Shown: positions 25,452-35,236 of the stretch, one piece after another
Layout of the letters: each line of letters starts with the position of its first letter
How positions within the stretch are numbered: position 1 is the stretch's first letter
Source of the DNA: Rhizobium etli 8C-3
GTDB lineage: Bacteria; Pseudomonadota; Alphaproteobacteria; Rhizobiales; Rhizobiaceae
Direction: 5' to 3'
DNA: 64,000 nt
NCBI RefSeq assembly: GCF_001908375.1
Contig: NZ_CP017241.1
Coordinates: 1,367,001-1,431,000, forward strand
Made by a program: the position numbers and the translations under genes
The notes under the pieces: model-generated
What the model saw: the letters and a program-made list of their open reading frames with translations, nothing else
Databases searched by the model: none
Told to the model about the DNA's origin: nothing

Positions 25452-25646
25452 GCGGCACATCGGCTTTTTGCGCGCAGTGCGGCTTTTTCCGCTTGCATTG
25501 GGCGACACGAAAAACTAAACGAAACAAGCTGTTTCGGCAGGTCGAGGCGTTGCGCAATCACGTAGCGAGCTTGACCGGGTCAAGCGGGCGCTTGGTTCGA
25601 CAAAAGGACCGGCGAGACGTTGAGGCCTACCGAATGAGGCATGTGA

Positions 25647-25685
25647 CGGAATGTAGCGCAGTCTGGTAGCGCACTTGACTGGGGG
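25647..25685 (+). tRNA. 5' half of tRNA-Pro(GGG), interrupted; left attachment site
   Basis: CGGAATGTAGCGCAG begins a proline tRNA: the acceptor strand CGGAATG, a D-arm with GGTAGCGC, and the anticodon stem CTTGA with loop CTGGGGG. After the last G the sequence (AAATAGTCC) no longer fits; there is no TCAAG stem partner, T-arm or CATTCCG acceptor strand. The break falls exactly where the integrase module begins, so this is attL of the prophage. The flank shows a short imperfect pairing, GACT-GGGGGAAAT-AGTC, which could be the recombinase core. The other half should be at attR outside the window. Confidence 0.85.
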
Positions 25686-25695
25686 AAATAGTCCT

Positions 25696-26853
25696 TCAGT
25701 CTGAATTCCCTCCTGATTTCAATTCCTTAGAAGACATACTTGAATCTGTCGTGGGACTTTTGGTGGGACTTGATGTCGCCTCCAGAGCGTTCCGGAGATC
25801 GTCGTCCAGGGCGTGGGCATACTTTGCCGTCGTTGCTACGTCGGCATGGCCGAGGAGCTTCTGAGCGACGCGGAGGTTCGATGCTCGCAGCACCCTCGTT
25901 GCGGCCGTGTGGCGCGTGTCGTGGAATCGGAAGTTGGTGACGCCGGCGCGCGGGACGGCGCGGCGCATCGCCGATTTGAGGCCGCTTTCGGTCAGCGGAT
26001 ATCGCTGATCGCGCACATAGCCGACCTTCTTCATGGTCTTCTTCGCGACGAACGTGAAAACCTTAATGGGGTGGAAGTCCTTCTGAGCCCAAAGGAGATC
26101 GAATGTCTCCTGCGACATCGGAAGGGTGCGCTCTTTGTTGCCCTTGCCGATCACTGTGAAGCGGCGGGAGAAGAAGTCGACGCGAGACCATTCCAGGCCG
26201 AGGATCTCCATGCGGCGGCAACCATTCAGGAAGGCAAAGCGCACGGCATCATCGTAGCCGCGCTCCAGCTCGCCCATGATGGCGTCTTCCTCGCCGAGCG
26301 ATGCCTCGCGTACGCGTTCCTTCGGTTCCTTCAGGATATGCTTTCCGAAGTCGACATCGCCGACGGTGACCTTCCAGACGTTCTTGGCACGGAGGATGAT
26401 CTCGCGCAGCGGCTGAGTGCAGGTTCGATTGACTGTCGCAGGTCCGACAAGGGCGCCGAGATGGACCTTGCCCTTTTTGCCGAGGCGGCGAACGCGCTCG
26501 CCTCGACGCTTGGCGACGATCGCCGCCACCTTCTCGTCGCTGATGTCACGAAGATCGGTGGATGCGCCGACATTGAGTTTCAGCCATTCGAGATTTTTCA
26601 GCGTCGTTTCAAAGTTCTTATGATGCTGCCCGACCTCGTTGTACCAGCGCAGCGCGGCAACCTCGAAGGTCATGGTCGAAGAGCTGAAGGCTTGCTCGAC
26701 GCTCAGTTGCGCCTTGGCAAGTTCCCGCTCGGTGTCTTCGAAGGCTTTTGCGTCTCGCTTTTTCGTTGCGCGAGTATCGCCAGAAAATCGACGGCCCCCG
26801 ACGATGAAGTCGTACGAATAAGTTTCTTTACCGGGACGTTTATAGACCGACAT
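25696..26853 (-). CDS. int: Phage tyrosine integrase
   Basis: A 385-aa site-specific recombinase. The catalytic residues are R213 (NGCRRMEILGL), H311-x-x-R314 (FHDTRHTAATR), H336 (KLLGHADVATT) and the nucleophile Y345 (TAKYAHAL). The N-terminal arm-binding part includes KRPGKETYSYDFIVGGRRFS. It integrates the phage at the adjacent tRNA-Pro gene. Its 5' end overlaps the excisionase-like gene by 151 bases, which is unusually long and suggests tight coupling, or a later start. Confidence 0.95.
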   Translation of the reverse strand: MSVYKRPGKETYSYDFIVGGRRFSGDTRATKKRDAKAFEDTERELAKAQLSVEQAFSSSTMTFEVAALRWYNEVGQHHKNFETTLKNLEWLKLNVGASTDLRDISDEKVAAIVAKRRGERVRRLGKKGKVHLGALVGPATVNRTCTQPLREIILRAKNVWKVTVGDVDFGKHILKEPKERVREASLGEEDAIMGELERGYDDAVRFAFLNGCRRMEILGLEWSRVDFFSRRFTVIGKGNKERTLPMSQETFDLLWAQKDFHPIKVFTFVAKKTMKKVGYVRDQRYPLTESGLKSAMRRAVPRAGVTNFRFHDTRHTAATRVLRASNLRVAQKLLGHADVATTAKYAHALDDDLRNALEATSSPTKSPTTDSSMSSKELKSGGNSD

Positions 26854-27038: not shown

Positions 27039-27322
27039 TTCATCCTCCCTTGAACTTCGATCGTCATCAGATCAGCCGCGAGAACCGATCTCGCGGGACA
27101 AGGATAGATCAGTGAAATTCCGTCTGACGAGGCTCGGAAGGTTGCGTCGCATTCAAATTCCAGCACGGCCTGGTGCAGCACGTAGCCGCCGTTAGGCACG
27201 GTGATGAACTCTGAACGCGAGCTGCCGCAGGCCGGGCAGCTTTCGCGTTCGGACAGCTTCGATATGAAAGACTGAGCCGTCATTTCAGAAGAGGCTCCGC
27301 TGCGCTGGCATGGCTTCCTCAC
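27035..27322 (-). CDS. Small zinc-ribbon-like phage protein
   Basis: A 95-aa protein with one CPACGSS pair and two further cysteines (FECDATF, YPCPA), which could bind a zinc ion. Function unknown. The GTG at 27322 overlaps the dnaN stop (GTGA), the coupling used throughout this operon. An ATG at 27283, giving 82 aa, is the alternative. It is followed immediately by the excisionase-like gene. Confidence 0.6.
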   Translation of the reverse strand: MRKPCQRSGASSEMTAQSFISKLSERESCPACGSSRSEFITVPNGGYVLHQAVLEFECDATFRASSDGISLIYPCPARSVLAADLMTIEVQGRMK

Positions 27323-28452
27323 ACGCGCATCGGCATAAGCACGATCAGGTTTTCGGGATGGGCTCCGATGCTGCGGAGCACGGCGGGGGAATTCGTGTCG
27401 CCAAGCGCCATGGTCAGCTGTTCGCCGGGCAGGTGAGACAGCGCGTCGTTGACGTATCGTGCGTTAAAGCCGATCTCCAATTCGGCGTGGCCGTCGTAAG
27501 ACAGCGTGTCCGAGGCGTCGCCGGCATCCGGGTTCTTGACTTCAAGGTGCAGCTGGCCGCCGGCGAAGCTGAAGCGGACGGCGCGACCGCGCTCGCCGCT
27601 GACCGTGGCGACGCGATCGATGGCGGCGGCGAGCGTCGGCGCATCGAGCGTCGCTTCCATGTCGTGGCCGTTTGGCACGACGCGGACGTAATCGGGGAAG
27701 GTGCCGTCGACGAGCTTAGAGGTGATCAGCGACGAGCCGCCCGAAAGCCGGATCAGGTTTTCGGAAAGCTCGACGATGATCTCGCCCGCCTTTGGCAGGA
27801 TCTTCTCGATTACCTTTATGGACTGGCGGGGAATGATGACGCCAGGCATGGCGGGGTCCATCTCGGCCTTCACGTAGCGCTTCGACAGGCGATGGCCGTC
27901 GGTCGCGACGAGAATGACGCCTTGGTGTTCGGCGTCTGCCGCCGTCGGATGCAGGAAGATGCCGTTCAGGTAGTAGCGCGTCTCTTCGGTCGAGACGGCG
28001 AAACCACAGGCAGTAATCGCCGCGGCAAAGTCGCCGGCGGCGATCGTGAAGCGGTGCTGAAAGCCGCCTGGTACCTTCATTTCGTGAAAGTCGGACGCGG
28101 GCAGAACCTGCAGGCTGAACTTCGAGCGACCCGCCTCGATCACCACGGCATCGAGCTTTCCGCCCTTGCGCTTGACCGTGACGTCGCAGCCGTCCGGCAG
28201 CTTGCGGACGATATCAGCGAGCAGCCCTGCGGGGACGGTGAAGGGCTCGAAATCGACATCGGCGATGGCCTTGAACGGCGTCGATGCCTCGATGTCGAGA
28301 TTGGTGAGGCGCGCCGAGAGCGAGCCCGGCGCCGCACCTGCCTCGATCAGCACGTTTTGCAGGATCGGGATGGTATTGCGCTTCTCGACGACATTGGCCG
28401 TCAGGGCGAGCGCCGCCATGAGAGCGGACTTTTCAGCCGTGAACATCTTCAA
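27319..28452 (-). CDS. dnaN: Phage-encoded DNA polymerase III beta subunit (sliding clamp)
   Basis: A full-length clamp, 377 aa, with all three domains: MKMFTAEKSALMAALALTAN, EKRNTIPILQNVLIEA and LTNLDIEAST (domain I); FAVSTEETRYYLNGIFLH and LVATDGHRLSKRYV (domain II); and FPDYVRVVPN, FNARYVNDALSHL and the C-terminal NLIVLMPMRV (domain III). It would hold a polymerase on phage DNA or recruit host Pol III. Siphoviruses of this size rarely bring their own clamp. Its start overlaps the DUF4326 gene by 20 bases. Confidence 0.93.
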   Translation of the reverse strand: MKMFTAEKSALMAALALTANVVEKRNTIPILQNVLIEAGAAPGSLSARLTNLDIEASTPFKAIADVDFEPFTVPAGLLADIVRKLPDGCDVTVKRKGGKLDAVVIEAGRSKFSLQVLPASDFHEMKVPGGFQHRFTIAAGDFAAAITACGFAVSTEETRYYLNGIFLHPTAADAEHQGVILVATDGHRLSKRYVKAEMDPAMPGVIIPRQSIKVIEKILPKAGEIIVELSENLIRLSGGSSLITSKLVDGTFPDYVRVVPNGHDMEATLDAPTLAAAIDRVATVSGERGRAVRFSFAGGQLHLEVKNPDAGDASDTLSYDGHAELEIGFNARYVNDALSHLPGEQLTMALGDTNSPAVLRSIGAHPENLIVLMPMRV

Positions 28453-30197: not shown

Positions 30198-30707
30198 TTA
30201 TCCGCGCCATTCCGGCGCAAAGGGAATGTCGTCATCCATGTCTCGGGAGAAGTTGGCAGGCGCGCCGCTGGAGCCGGAGGCCGCGCGCGTGGCGCGATCC
30301 CCATCGAGGCCGTAATCACCCGGACCGTCGCCGCCGGCGCGGTAGCCGGAGCCTTCGCGCTTGTCGAGCAACTGAATGGAGGTGTTGAAACCCTGCAGGA
30401 CGATCTCGGTCGAATACCGATCTTGGCCGTCGCGGTCTTGCCACTTGCGCGTCTGGAGCTGGCCCTCGACGTAGATTTTCGAGCCCTTCTTCACGAACTG
30501 CTCGACGAGCTTCACCAGCGGCTCGGCGAAGACGACGATGCTGTGCCATTCGGTCTTTTCGCGGCGCTCGCCGGACGTGCGGTCGCGCCAGCTTTCCGAG
30601 GTAGCGAGCCGGATCGAGGCGATCGAGCGGCCGTCTTGCGTCCGGCGGATTTCGGGATCGGCGCCGAGATGGCCGAGGAGAATGACTTTGTTGACGGAGC
30701 CGGCCAT
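30198..30707 (-). CDS. ssb: Single-stranded DNA-binding protein
   Basis: A 169-aa SSB. The OB-fold reads MAGSVNKVILLGHLGADPEIRRT, IASIRLATSESWRD, EKTEWHSIVVF and GSKIYVEGQLQTRKW. A Gly-rich linker leads to the acidic tail DDDIPFAPEWRG, a variant of DDDIPF not at the very end. It coats ssDNA in phage replication and recombination. The ATG at 30707 overlaps the upstream stop; a GTG one codon earlier is also possible. Confidence 0.93.
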   Translation of the reverse strand: MAGSVNKVILLGHLGADPEIRRTQDGRSIASIRLATSESWRDRTSGERREKTEWHSIVVFAEPLVKLVEQFVKKGSKIYVEGQLQTRKWQDRDGQDRYSTEIVLQGFNTSIQLLDKREGSGYRAGGDGPGDYGLDGDRATRAASGSSGAPANFSRDMDDDIPFAPEWRG

Positions 30708-31075
30708 CACGCCACCTCCGCTGCAGTTGCCGGCACGTCCGGCGACGGGAGCTTTTCGCTGCCGACGTAGAGCAAGGCGAGGAAGACACTGGCGAGTAGC
30801 AGGTCGGAGCCGCTTTCAGTGCGGGCGTAGGGATCGCCGTCTATAATGCGGCGCGCGAAATGTTCGGCGGCAACCAGGTCGACCGGCGCGATCAAGCAAT
30901 CAAAATGCTGGTCGACGAGTGCGACGGCTGAGGTGCCGAAGGTTCGCGTCACCGGCGTGCCGTCCTTGGCGGTGCCTGCCGGAAGCTCGCCGGAAACGTC
31001 GGTCAGGACGATCTTGCAGCCGGAGCGGCCGAAGCTGTCGTCGATGACGGTGCAGGGAATCGGTGATTTCTTCAC
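30707..31075 (-). CDS. Hypothetical phage protein
   Basis: A 122-aa protein starting MKKSPIPCTVIDDSFG, with KIVLTDVSGELP and a C-terminal helix SDLLLASVFLALLYV. Not recognised. The GTG at 31075 overlaps the stop of the HD gene by four bases (GTGA), and its stop overlaps ssb, so it is fixed inside the operon. The longer open frame upstream overlaps the HD gene entirely and is not used. Confidence 0.65.
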   Translation of the reverse strand: MKKSPIPCTVIDDSFGRSGCKIVLTDVSGELPAGTAKDGTPVTRTFGTSAVALVDQHFDCLIAPVDLVAAEHFARRIIDGDPYARTESGSDLLLASVFLALLYVGSEKLPSPDVPATAAEVA

Positions 31076-32670: not shown

Positions 32671-33303
32671 CTATTCCTCGCGTTGTACGCTAAAAACTAC
32701 CTTGCCGACAACCCGAACGATGTTTCCGTCGCCTTCGAATGGATCGATCGGGACTTGGTGACGTGGGTCATTAGATTCGGGAAGCAGCCAGAGCTTGCCT
32801 GTGTCATCCTTGAAGAGCTTTTTGACGGTGGCCTCGCGTAAGCCGTCGGGCCGTTCGACCTCTATAATGTAGCGCTTTCCGGGCACGGGTGTCTCACCCG
32901 TTTCCAGGATGTCCGTATAAATAAGCGCGGAGCCATCCGGGTAGCGCAGGTTCATCGACGGGCCGCGGGACTCCGCGCCATGTAATGTAAAAGGGCGCAG
33001 GTCCGGATCGTCCGGTACCTGGACGTCGTAGCAGTCTTCCTCCTCCCAGAGGTGAGATTCTGCCCAATCTCCCGCTTGAACATGCTGCCTGACGCGGACC
33101 GTCCTGACGTTGCCGTGGTCAGCAATCAACTCGGCCGGCTCACGATTGAAGATCTCGGCGAGCTTGCGCATTTTAGTTAGCGTCAGCTCGGTCTTCCCCT
33201 TCTCAAGGCGATTGTAATTTTCTGTGGAAATGTCGAGCGCGGCCGCAACGTCAGCCTGCGTCATTCCACTCAACTCCCTGATTTTCTTCAGTTGATTTGT
33301 CAT
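32671..33303 (-). CDS. LexA/CI-like self-cleaving repressor
   Basis: A 210-aa repressor. The N-terminal HTH_3 (XRE) domain is MTQADVAAALDISTENYNRLEKG. The C-terminal S24 peptidase domain has a cleavage site A77-G78 (VQAGDWAE), the nucleophile Ser116 (GPSMNL) and a base Lys161 (EATVKKLF). It should hold lysogeny and be inactivated by RecA-driven self-cleavage after DNA damage. Three operators lie between it and the divergent Cro-like gene. It is the sole strong repressor candidate in the window. Confidence 0.9.
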   Translation of the reverse strand: MTNQLKKIRELSGMTQADVAAALDISTENYNRLEKGKTELTLTKMRKLAEIFNREPAELIADHGNVRTVRVRQHVQAGDWAESHLWEEEDCYDVQVPDDPDLRPFTLHGAESRGPSMNLRYPDGSALIYTDILETGETPVPGKRYIIEVERPDGLREATVKKLFKDDTGKLWLLPESNDPRHQVPIDPFEGDGNIVRVVGKVVFSVQREE

Positions 33304-33313
33304 GCGTCACTTA

Positions 33314-33387
33314 TAACGATTATCGTCAAGTCATGTATGACGATAAACGACAATATAGCGTCTTGCGTTTATTGTCGAATATCGACA
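33314..33387. promoter_or_regulatory. Right operator cluster of the phage repressor
   Basis: Three 15-base sites: TAACGATTATCGTCA (33314-33328), TGACGATAAACGACA (33338-33352) and the perfect palindrome TGTCGAATATCGACA (33373-33387). They fill the 117-base gap between the divergent repressor and Cro-like genes, as OR does in lambdoid phages. Two OL copies repeat the motif. Confidence 0.78.
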
Positions 33388-33420: not shown

Positions 33421-33672
33421 ATGAAGCTGAAAGAGTGGCGACTTACGCGAGAGCTAACGCTGGCTGAAATGGCATCTGCGCTCGAAATCGAAAACGCGCG
33501 GACCTACCAGCGTTATGAGGACGGCGAAAACCGCACTGACGCTCCGCTCGTAGAGCGCATTATCGCGTTCACGGGCGGAAGCGTCTCTCTCGACGACCTT
33601 CACGCTCAACGCCTCGACTGGCTTCGCGCAAACCGCCCCGAAGCTTTTGGTCGACGGGAGGCCGCAGAATGA
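33421..33672 (+). CDS. Cro-like XRE-family regulator
   Basis: An 83-aa protein with a helix-turn-helix (LTLAEMASALEIENARTYQRYEDG). It is divergent from the repressor across the operator cluster, the position of Cro. It should favour lytic growth by repressing the repressor gene. Its tail (SVSLDDLHAQRLDWLRANRPEAF) is not part of the HTH. A weak ribosome site makes the start only probable. Confidence 0.75.
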   Translation: MKLKEWRLTRELTLAEMASALEIENARTYQRYEDGENRTDAPLVERIIAFTGGSVSLDDLHAQRLDWLRANRPEAFGRREAAE

Positions 33673-33773
33673 TGGCCTCGACGATTTCTCCGCCGCGCCG
33701 CCCATCGCCACGGGCAGGCGCGCACCTCGGCCGGAGCTTGCTCTCCTCCTGGCGCTCCGGCCGCCTTCTATTC

Positions 33774-33849
33774 CGCAGGGTAGGGAAGCGGTCATCCCGC
33801 GTGGTTCATACCCACGAGAGCGCAGGTTCAAATCCTGCCCCTGCAACCA
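33774..33849 (+). tRNA. Phage-borne initiator-like tRNA-Met(CAT)
   Basis: A 76-base tRNA with encoded CCA. Acceptor strands CGCAGGG / CCCTGCA leave a C1-A72 mismatch, the hallmark of bacterial initiator tRNA; discriminator A73. D-stem GGGA/TCCC; anticodon stem CGTGG/CCACG with loop TTCATAC (anticodon CAT); variable loop AGAGC; T-stem GCAGG/CCTGC with loop TTCAAAT. The anticodon stem has only two of the three conserved G-C pairs of initiators (T-A at 29-41). All lengths are canonical. It lies right after the Cro-like gene, facing right. The small open frame across it (33669-33884) is spurious. Confidence 0.9.
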
Positions 33850-33985
33850 GTTTCGATGTCCGTTTCGCATGTGGTCCTCCGTGACCTGCTGACGGACTGA
33901 AGCTCACATTTTCGGAACCTTCCCACCACGGGAAAACACGCCGGGATTTCCCGGCGCGGGAAACCTTTTGTCTTTGCGAGGCCCC

Positions 33986-34495
33986 ATGACCAACGACACG
34001 ATGACGAACGCTTGGTTCCACCGGCTCAAGGCTGCGAACCGTATGTTGATCAAGCTGAACGGCGGGATCGAGGCCTCTGCCGAAATCACTTCGCTTTCGA
34101 AGAGCCAGATCGGCCGCTGCCACAGCGACAGCGATACGGAGCTGCTGCCGCTGCCCGCCGTCATGCGGCTTGAGGCCGAATGCGGCAACTATGCTGTGAC
34201 CCGGGCGCAGGCCGAGTTGCACGGTTGCAAGCTCTCCGATCCGCGGGAAGGGGCCGCAGATGGTGCTACCGTCATGCGTGGTGCCGCCGAACTTGGCGGC
34301 CGCGTGGCGCAGTATCAGCACAATCACGCCATCGCCTCGCTCGATCTGAAGCTTTGCCGTTCCGAGCTGCTGCAAGGCGTGCGTGACCTGCAATCGGTCA
34401 TCGAGAGCGCCAGCCTCCTCTTGAACTCCTATGCATCGGCGCTAGCCAAGGGCGGCGAGGACGCGCCGGCGCTCCGCCTGGTCGGCGAGGATTAA
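33986..34495 (+). CDS. CII-like phage regulatory protein (putative)
   Basis: A 169-aa protein. The segment GIEASAEITSLSKSQIGRCHS followed by LPAVMRLEAECGNYAVTRA resembles the CP76/CII group of P2-type phage regulators. The C-terminal half is helical (LQGVRDLQSVIESASLLLNSY). Its place as the first protein gene after the Cro-like gene and tRNA fits a lysis-lysogeny switch. Homology is by eye only. The ATG at 33986 is chosen over upstream in-frame codons. The 136 bases before it hold no gene. Confidence 0.55.
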   Translation: MTNDTMTNAWFHRLKAANRMLIKLNGGIEASAEITSLSKSQIGRCHSDSDTELLPLPAVMRLEAECGNYAVTRAQAELHGCKLSDPREGAADGATVMRGAAELGGRVAQYQHNHAIASLDLKLCRSELLQGVRDLQSVIESASLLLNSYASALAKGGEDAPALRLVGED

Positions 34496-34499
34496 GCCG

Positions 34500-34721
34500 A
34501 TGGCGAAGAGCAATCCCACGTCCATCACCTTCAGAAACATGAAGATGAAGCCGGAGCATGTGGCGCAGCTGATGCGCGACCTGAACCGTCATTCAATCCC
34601 CGCCGCTTCCGCGACAGGCTACGAGTGCCCCAAGTGCGGGCATGTTCTCGCCATCGCCGAGATTGTCGAGCGCTACTGCGCCAAATGCGGCGACATCGAG
34701 CCTCGCGAGGTGCGGGCATGA
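34500..34721 (+). CDS. Small zinc-ribbon protein
   Basis: A 73-aa protein whose second half reads ATGYECPKCGHVLAIAEIVERYCAKCGD, a four-cysteine zinc ribbon (CPKC...CAKC). The N-terminus is basic and might contact nucleic acid. The stop overlaps the start of the GcrA-like gene (ATGA). Function unknown. Confidence 0.7.
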   Translation: MAKSNPTSITFRNMKMKPEHVAQLMRDLNRHSIPAASATGYECPKCGHVLAIAEIVERYCAKCGDIEPREVRA

Positions 34722-35236
34722 ACGTCCACGTCACCGGCGCCTGGACCGAAGAGCGCACCCGGCATGCGGCCAAGCTGTGGCGGGACGGACTTACCGCCTC
34801 GCAGATTGCCGCTGCACTTGGCGGCATCAGCCGCAATGCCGTCATCGGAAAGGCAACCCGCAATCCTGATCTATTCGCGCCGCGCCGCGGTGTTGCGCCG
34901 CGTATCGCCAGGCCTGCGAATGTGAAGCAGCACGCGCCGAAGCCGAAGGCCACTGCCGCGATATTCCGCGCGCCGCCGAAGAGGGTCGCGGCGCCACCTG
35001 TGACGGCGCCCGAGCGGCCGCACGGTCTATTCCGCCACCGCGATCTTTCGATCGATGGCGCCACTCCCATCGCCTTCGCGCTGATCGATCGCCTCCAGTG
35101 CTCCTGGCCTTTGACCGACTTCGAGGACGGGGACGGTCCGGACATGCCATGCTGCGGCCGACCACGCCGCGGCGGCCTCGCACCGGACAGCGCGTATTGC
35201 GCCGAGCATGCCGCCGTTTCGCGAGGAGCCGCCTGA
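34718..35236 (+). CDS. GcrA-family cell-cycle regulator, phage copy
   Basis: A 172-aa protein with the GcrA signature: WTEERTRHAAKLWRDGLTASQIAAALGGISRNAVIGKATR at the N-terminus, a basic/Pro-rich linker, and a C-terminal zinc-like block LQCSWPLTDFEDGDGPDMPCCG ... AYCAEHAA. GcrA binds the housekeeping sigma factor and promoters with methylated GANTC sites in alphaproteobacteria. A phage copy could redirect host transcription. The start overlaps the preceding stop (ATGA), and its stop overlaps the next tiny ORF. Confidence 0.88.
   Translation: MNVHVTGAWTEERTRHAAKLWRDGLTASQIAAALGGISRNAVIGKATRNPDLFAPRRGVAPRIARPANVKQHAPKPKATAAIFRAPPKRVAAPPVTAPERPHGLFRHRDLSIDGATPIAFALIDRLQCSWPLTDFEDGDGPDMPCCGRPRRGGLAPDSAYCAEHAAVSRGAA

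Follow-up and report, generated by a model that had tools for sequence, protein, structure and literature searches.

An initiator-type tRNA gene beside the lysis-lysogeny switch of a Rhizobium etli prophage

The prophage and its early region

A single tRNA gene, tRNA-Met(cat) on the + strand, was detected by ARAGORN in the window, i.e., the whole stretch of 64,000 nucleotides analysed here (Rhizobium etli 8C-3, contig NZ_CP017241.1, C1:1367001-1431000 of the host genome). The gene order around it is that of a lysis-lysogeny switch: a divergent CI gene, a cro-like gene, the tRNA, a hairpin, a CII-like gene, and then a gene of the GcrA family (Table 1). The tRNA starts 101 nt behind the cro-like gene. 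The latter is called from a weak match to PF13560 (24.8 bits, below the cut-off of 27) together with its place divergent from the HTH/S24 repressor; on these grounds the tRNA does adjoin a Cro-like gene, as originally predicted, and the place recurs in related loci (see below). The consensus scan gave two promoter-like sites in the stretch it covered, compared with a mean of 0.4 in shuffles; such a scan does not by itself imply function. The hairpin of the window, taken alone, is not above chance in its stretch; its local fold has a z of -1.76. An open frame spans the tRNA (window 33669-33884), and likewise in Mesorhizobium phage vB_MseS-P1 (L031:4651-5151), where it is annotated as a gene; this is probably due to chance.

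Table 1. Features of the early region and of the prophage ends (window positions unless indicated otherwise).
Feature	Position	Strand	Evidence
attL	25643..25685		Repeat (43 bp) of the tRNA-Pro(GGG) 5' half; blastn 43/43 identical
Tyrosine integrase	25696..26853	-	PF00589 E 2.6e-29; phrog_1 E 4.2e-46
CI-type repressor (HTH + S24)	32671..33303	-	HTH_3 E 1.8e-14; Peptidase_S24 E 1.2e-6; phrog_4 transcriptional repressor E 2.7e-20
Candidate early rightward promoter, ahead of cro	33297..33326	+	Consensus scan, 9/12 matches
Cro-like small HTH gene, 83 aa	33421..33672	+	PF13560 E 2.8e-5; place divergent from repressor
Initiator-type tRNA(CAU)	33774..33849	+	76 nt, CCA encoded; ARAGORN, RF00005, comparison with host tRNAs
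Terminator-like hairpin, T-rich tail; follows tRNA and precedes cII	33947..33963	+	1 found, 1.6 expected in shuffles
CII-like transcriptional activator gene	33968..34495	+	phrog_101 E 1.3e-12
GcrA-family regulator gene	34718..35236	+	PF07750 E 7e-21
attR	G000:C1:1442624-1442666, beyond the window		Second repeat copy, within complete tRNA-Pro(GGG)

The tRNA gene belongs to a prophage of about 50.0 kb that is integrated in tRNA-Pro(GGG). The prediction that a phage carries it was thus right: the element is bounded by the 43-bp direct repeat and encodes, besides the tyrosine integrase, terminase, portal and head genes (profile matches). The genes to its left are those of the host (PF02504 and 3-oxoacyl-ACP synthase III domain matches), and a complete tRNA-Pro(ggg) (L027) at its right end shows that the host tRNA was rebuilt. 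When 11 kb of the prophage were compared with the phage collection by megablast, no match came up. The prophage further carries genes for a DNA polymerase III beta clamp of its own (window 27319-28452, all three Pfam domains) and for an SSB (30198-30710).

A prophage that sits in a tRNA gene, has a tyrosine integrase and carries a tRNA brings to mind tRNA-dependent lysogeny, in which integration destroys a host tRNA and that of the phage takes its place. The system described in PMC10865867 shares with this one a temperate phage, attachment in a tRNA gene and a phage tRNA gene, but here the host tRNA is rebuilt and of another isotype (Pro, the phage tRNA being Met), and three intact host initiator genes remain. 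Since tRNA-Pro(GGG) is complete at the right end, this explanation is excluded for this prophage, and we give it practically no weight. The authors of a study of phiLM21-like prophages also exclude it for theirs (PMC12429752). An attachment-site remnant was ruled out as an identity of the initiator tRNA: the attachment repeat is tRNA-Pro and is located away from it.

Structure and type of the tRNA

The covariance model accepts the tRNA over its whole length (RF00005, 33774-33846, 62.5 bits, E 3.5e-11, Rfam/Infernal cut-off 29). The original prediction described a perfect fold, an encoded CCA and a mismatch at 1:72. The last two are read directly in the sequence; the first holds for the cloverleaf, complete in both ARAGORN and Infernal, but not for the minimum-energy fold of the unmodified RNA, which is not a full cloverleaf. 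The claim that the tRNA is of the initiator type stands as well. C1 and A72 leave no strong 1:72 pair, the 11:24 pair is purine-pyrimidine (G11-C24), and the tRNA further has G30-C40, G31-C39, A73, G2-C71 and C3-G70. Among these, C1·A72, A73, G2-C71 and C3-G70 are formylation identity elements in the list given in PMC9976931; where the fourth element is G4-C69, the phage tRNA has A-U, a point that speaks against a functional initiator.

To place the tRNA among those of the host, we searched the host genome (7.31 Mb in four contigs), which has 48 RF00005 matches, phage tRNA included. The host CAU tRNAs comprise three identical intact initiators (L024-L026), one elongator Met (L019), one Ile2-like tRNA (L022) and one damaged initiator (L048). 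The phage tRNA is nearer to the host initiator (58/78 identical aligned positions) than to Ile2 (50/80) or elongator Met (44/79), in line with the prediction. A decayed elongator or Ile2 was ruled out: the host elongator Met and Ile2 have a paired 1:72, a pyrimidine at 11 and a purine at 24, whereas the phage tRNA has an unpaired 1:72 and the inverse at 11 and 24, besides its lower identity to both. Judging by its sequence, the prophage gene is real, intact, of the initiator type and probably functional.

The anticodon stem of the phage tRNA (29:41, 30:40 and 31:39) reads U-A, G-C, G-C, and thus differs at 29:41 from the E. coli-type set G29-C41, G30-C40 and G31-C39, three pairs that a review calls highly conserved in initiators (PMC7949028). 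The prediction had noted the missing pair correctly, but it has no weight and is no oddity: all three intact host initiators have A-U, G-C, G-C (and A11-U24), so that lacking G29-C41 is the norm here.

The phage and host initiators have in common C1·A72, G2-C71, C3-G70, G30-C40, G31-C39, A73, the encoded CCA and an identical T arm. They differ in A4-U69, in the 11:24 pair (G11-C24 versus A11-U24), in the 29:41 pair (U29-A41 versus A29-U41), at positions 32 and 38 (U32/C38 versus C32/A38) and in the D arm. Their genomic place also differs: the phage tRNA lies in an early phage operon, and the three intact host genes all lie in rrn operons, behind the 23S and 5S rRNA genes. The damaged fourth host initiator (L346:2925-2998, G000:C1:3713924-3713997) also lies behind a 5S gene; it scores 48.2 bits and lacks a normal 3' end.

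Recurrence and conservation in related phages

We searched for similar tRNAs with patterns whose fixed parts are the anticodon, U29-A41, A72, C71, GG/CC and some of the T arm; position 32 was limited to C or U and position 38 to A or C. Base 1 was left free, although a G-C pair at 1:72 could not match because A72 is fixed. The U29-A41 + A72 pattern occurs at 11 places in 10 of the 148 genomes of the genus and in 5 of 397 genomes drawn from the order (both figures count the window's own), and the reversed control pattern gave no match in any row of either scan. At 8 of the 11 genus places (L334, L335, L336, L339, L340, L341, L343 and L344) a repressor related to the CI of the window is encoded divergently upstream; L342, with a short and weak match to the CI model, was left out of this count.

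Viral contigs (IMG/VR) gave at least 120 stretches matching the pattern and 36 matching a narrower one. Among the matches listed, an ARAGORN model was obtained for 149 of 151 (viral ones plus four other loci), the other two being dropped; 144 IMG/VR matches correspond to 115 distinct tRNAs; and at 99 loci the tRNA is the only one in its stretch of 1 to 15 kb. We tested the context of 93 loci with at most two tRNAs per stretch and at least 1.1 kb upstream, including the window and three other loci from outside IMG/VR. A repressor related to the CI of the window is found divergently upstream at 22 of them (window included; 16 distinct tRNAs), and no related repressor was found at that place in the other 71, again among the matches listed. 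Of 57 divergent open reading frames of the right size among these matches, 21 match peptidase S24 and 22 match phrog_4. The 20 CI-related repressors that were aligned are 18 to 56% identical to that of the window, so that the place has persisted while the repressor changed considerably. At other viral loci, the genes next to the tRNA include those for HNH endonucleases, head scaffolding proteins and terminase small subunits.

The terminator-like element also recurs. The 24 loci analysed comprise RR1-A and Rivra together with 18 CI loci (out of 22) and 4 genus loci (out of 8), the rest being omitted as near-duplicates. A hairpin with a T-rich tail lies at most 260 bases behind the tRNA in 20 of them, with a mean score of 17.3 (5.3 in mononucleotide shuffles), and takes the form TTCCC-n5-GGGAA in 7.

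Two minor observations came from these scans. In genome contigs, the pattern matched 109 stretches with a match to the CI model in 4, and the 80 titles listed are mostly Saccharibacteria; the presence of the U29-A41 pattern in such records (L359, L384, L392, L397) indicates that this form of the stem may be that of their cellular initiator. An off-by-one pattern retrieved viral initiator-like CAU tRNAs (L049, L054, L062, L087, L092 and others) with U1-A72 and A11-U24, in which the 3' acceptor strand is one base longer and can be read as bulged; they are left out of all counts.

Searching named phages with the 76-base tRNA gave 40 records at E 0.01, of which 12 cover at least 80% of the tRNA. 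In vB_MseS-P1 the order is a 'LexA repressor' on the - strand, a 'repressor protein C', an open reading frame annotated as 'transcriptional repressor' across the unannotated tRNA, and a 'CII repressor'. Rhizobium phage RR1-A, whose tRNA does not fit the pattern and is outside all pattern counts, has a - strand gene, a small + strand gene (both 'hypothetical'), a tRNA-Met and then a - strand gene. Agrobacterium phage Rivra has CI, a small gene, a 'tRNA-Leu(cag)' and CII, so that an annotated CII gene lies behind the place of the tRNA in both vB_MseS-P1 and Rivra. We read the Rivra tRNA (L353:3001-3076), which has an initiator-like body, the anticodon CAG and a broken anticodon stem, as a decayed initiator; one pattern for the CAG version gave no further case in the viral contigs. 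Because this copy decayed, an initiator tRNA at the cro place does not seem to be always needed. Nor is the early position universal, as the 71 viral-scan loci lacking a match to a related repressor at that place suggest and as two phages with the tRNA elsewhere show: in phiLM21 it is flanked by an HNH gene and the gene for the small terminase subunit, and in Ochrobactrum phage POI1126 it adjoins the major capsid gene. The position behind cro is thus frequent, not universal, among phage initiator tRNAs, and the conservation in related prophages that the prediction proposed to check was found at the genus places, the viral loci and vB_MseS-P1 given above.

In each of nine comparisons, the tRNA is more alike than either of the adjoining 100-base flanks. 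With L334 the tRNA is identical at 74 of 76 positions, and the flanks are no better than shuffled sequence; the margin over the flanks is small for L344 and on one side of L343, and few flank bases aligned in the comparisons with vB_MseS-P1 and RR1-A. This conservation argues against a passenger, i.e., a captured or remnant tRNA without present function, as does the attachment repeat, which is tRNA-Pro sequence at another place. The gene is no fresh host copy either, since its D and anticodon arms differ from those of the host. The decayed copy of Rivra speaks for a passenger, as does the fact that tRNA genes often mark integration sites, but we find this explanation unlikely.

Among the matches listed, the 115 distinct viral tRNAs show which parts vary. 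Base 1 is most often C (47), then U (36), G (18) and A (14); facing the fixed A72, it is thus unpaired in 79 and forms a weak pair in 36. The stem pairs that the pattern left free were kept through changes at 3:70 (115 of 115), 7:66 (114), 28:42 (114) and 51:63 (115), and less so at 2:71 (103), 4:69 (108), 12:23 (106) and 13:22 (95). A U·C occurs at 2:71 in 10 of the 115 tRNAs listed, and phage initiators starting with GTCG (L304, L255, L308, L337, L342) have mismatches at both 1:72 and 2:71.

These data bear on whether the tRNA might be a processing or regulatory element, whose fold would be excised by RNase P and 3' nucleases to separate the cro and cII messages, with translation being secondary. 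The fixed place between cro and cII and the hairpin behind it are consistent with this. However, any tRNA would then do, yet the anticodon, the GG/CC stem and the unpaired base 1 persist amid changes at other bases (base 1 was not part of the search pattern; the anticodon, GG/CC and A72 were). As phiLM21 and POI1126, moreover, carry the tRNA away from this place, we consider the explanation improbable.

Possible role in lytic growth

The purpose of phage tRNAs is an open question, and codon supply cannot account for an initiator tRNA. Its retention at the same spot in many related viruses points to a benefit for the virus early in infection. We favour, with a probability of roughly 0.55, a supplementary initiator tRNA that is expressed immediately early, is silent in the lysogen and supports translation initiation in lytic growth. 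What is observed is the initiator-featured sequence, the gene order, the conservation above the flanks and the recurrence in related phages; from these we infer co-transcription with cro, repression by CI, charging, formylation and a lytic benefit. By analogy with lambda, the early promoter, cro, the tRNA and the terminator-like hairpin would form an immediate-early unit, with cII next. CI would keep the tRNA silent in the lysogen; upon infection or induction, it would be made together with Cro and then trimmed, aminoacylated with methionine and formylated; with IF2 it would initiate the translation of phage proteins, thereby adding to or replacing the host initiator pool. The boost for GTG starts that the prediction considered finds no support here: a CAU initiator reads AUG, GUG and UUG starts. 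One possible benefit is that the supply of the host initiator would hang on the rrn operons in which its genes are observed, a dependence that may not matter, tRNAs being stable. Another is that the host initiator tRNA may be cut by toxins.

This last point, akin to the escape from tRNA cleavage raised in the prediction, in which toxins of the host or of a rival prophage would cut the anticodon arm of the host initiator upon infection and leave the altered phage arm uncut, so that the phage tRNA is kept, is a special case of the supplementary initiator that names the reason. We regard it as possible without counting on it. Compared with the host initiator, the tRNA of the window has changes at 8 of the 17 bases of the anticodon arm (positions 32 and 38 among them) and at none of the 17 of the T arm, with 2/14 in the acceptor and 4/8 in the D stem. 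Among the 11 genus tRNAs (ten distinct), in the columns left free by the pattern, the differences amount to 50/66 in the anticodon arm, 22/99 in the T arm, 31/132 in the acceptor and 36/88 in the D stem. Changes are as frequent in the D stem, so fast change is not confined to the anticodon arm. Bases 32 and 38 change together among the matches listed (Fisher p of 3e-18, relatedness ignored), which fits evasion, but the loop CTCATAA is kept in 76 of the 115 distinct viral tRNAs listed (TTCATAC in 29, CTCATAC in 9 and TTCATAA in 1). The host genome has six PIN-domain matches, yet we know of no initiator-cutting enzyme in this host. Of the VapC toxins characterised so far, the majority are described as directed at initiator tRNA (PMC10945364), including one from Bosea, a rhizobial relative (PMC8522696), whereas VapC10 of S. 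meliloti is described as cutting tRNA-Ser, and Shigella phages are reported generally to avoid encoding tRNA-fMet (PMC10264068). The tRNAs of T5, which protect against PARIS and retron-Eco7 (PMC12409363, PMC11555353), are likewise phage-encoded and changed in the anticodon arm, but they are elongators whose protection was tested experimentally, whereas the resistance of this initiator is a prediction. Should it withstand toxins that cut initiators, phage tRNAs would have an anti-defence role that extends from elongators to the initiator.

A stronger version, which we find doubtful, would make cro, the initiator tRNA and the terminator a fixed immediate-early module of temperate rhizobial phages, with which the phage takes control of translation initiation at the first lytic step; the rebuilt anticodon arm would evade initiator-cutting host toxins, and the lysis-lysogeny switch would be coupled to the control of initiation. 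For the supplementary initiator in general, a sole initiator tRNA by the switch of a small temperate phage offers a clean test system, with one gene, one translation step and one expected time.

Single tRNA-fMet genes in rhizobial prophages have already been published. According to PMC12429752, just one tRNA gene is present in 15 phiLM21-like Sinorhizobium prophages, namely tRNA-Met(CAU) in 10 and tRNA-fMet(CAU) in 4, and the prophage NV1.1.1 carries a tRNA-fMet (PMC10460002); like the prophage of the window, these are temperate rhizobial phages with a sole CAU tRNA. In the available open-access literature, we found no report of an initiator tRNA positioned behind cro. What is added here is the recurrent place beside the lysis-lysogeny switch, which makes the role of the tRNA testable. 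phiLM21 itself is described as integrating in tRNA-Pro(GGG) and rebuilding it (PMC5537653), as the prophage of the window does, but differs from it in the place of its tRNA, which in the window lies behind cro. The tRNA-Met of phiLM21 (NC_029046.1:21148-21224) is annotated on the - strand and found by ARAGORN on the + strand of the same stretch.
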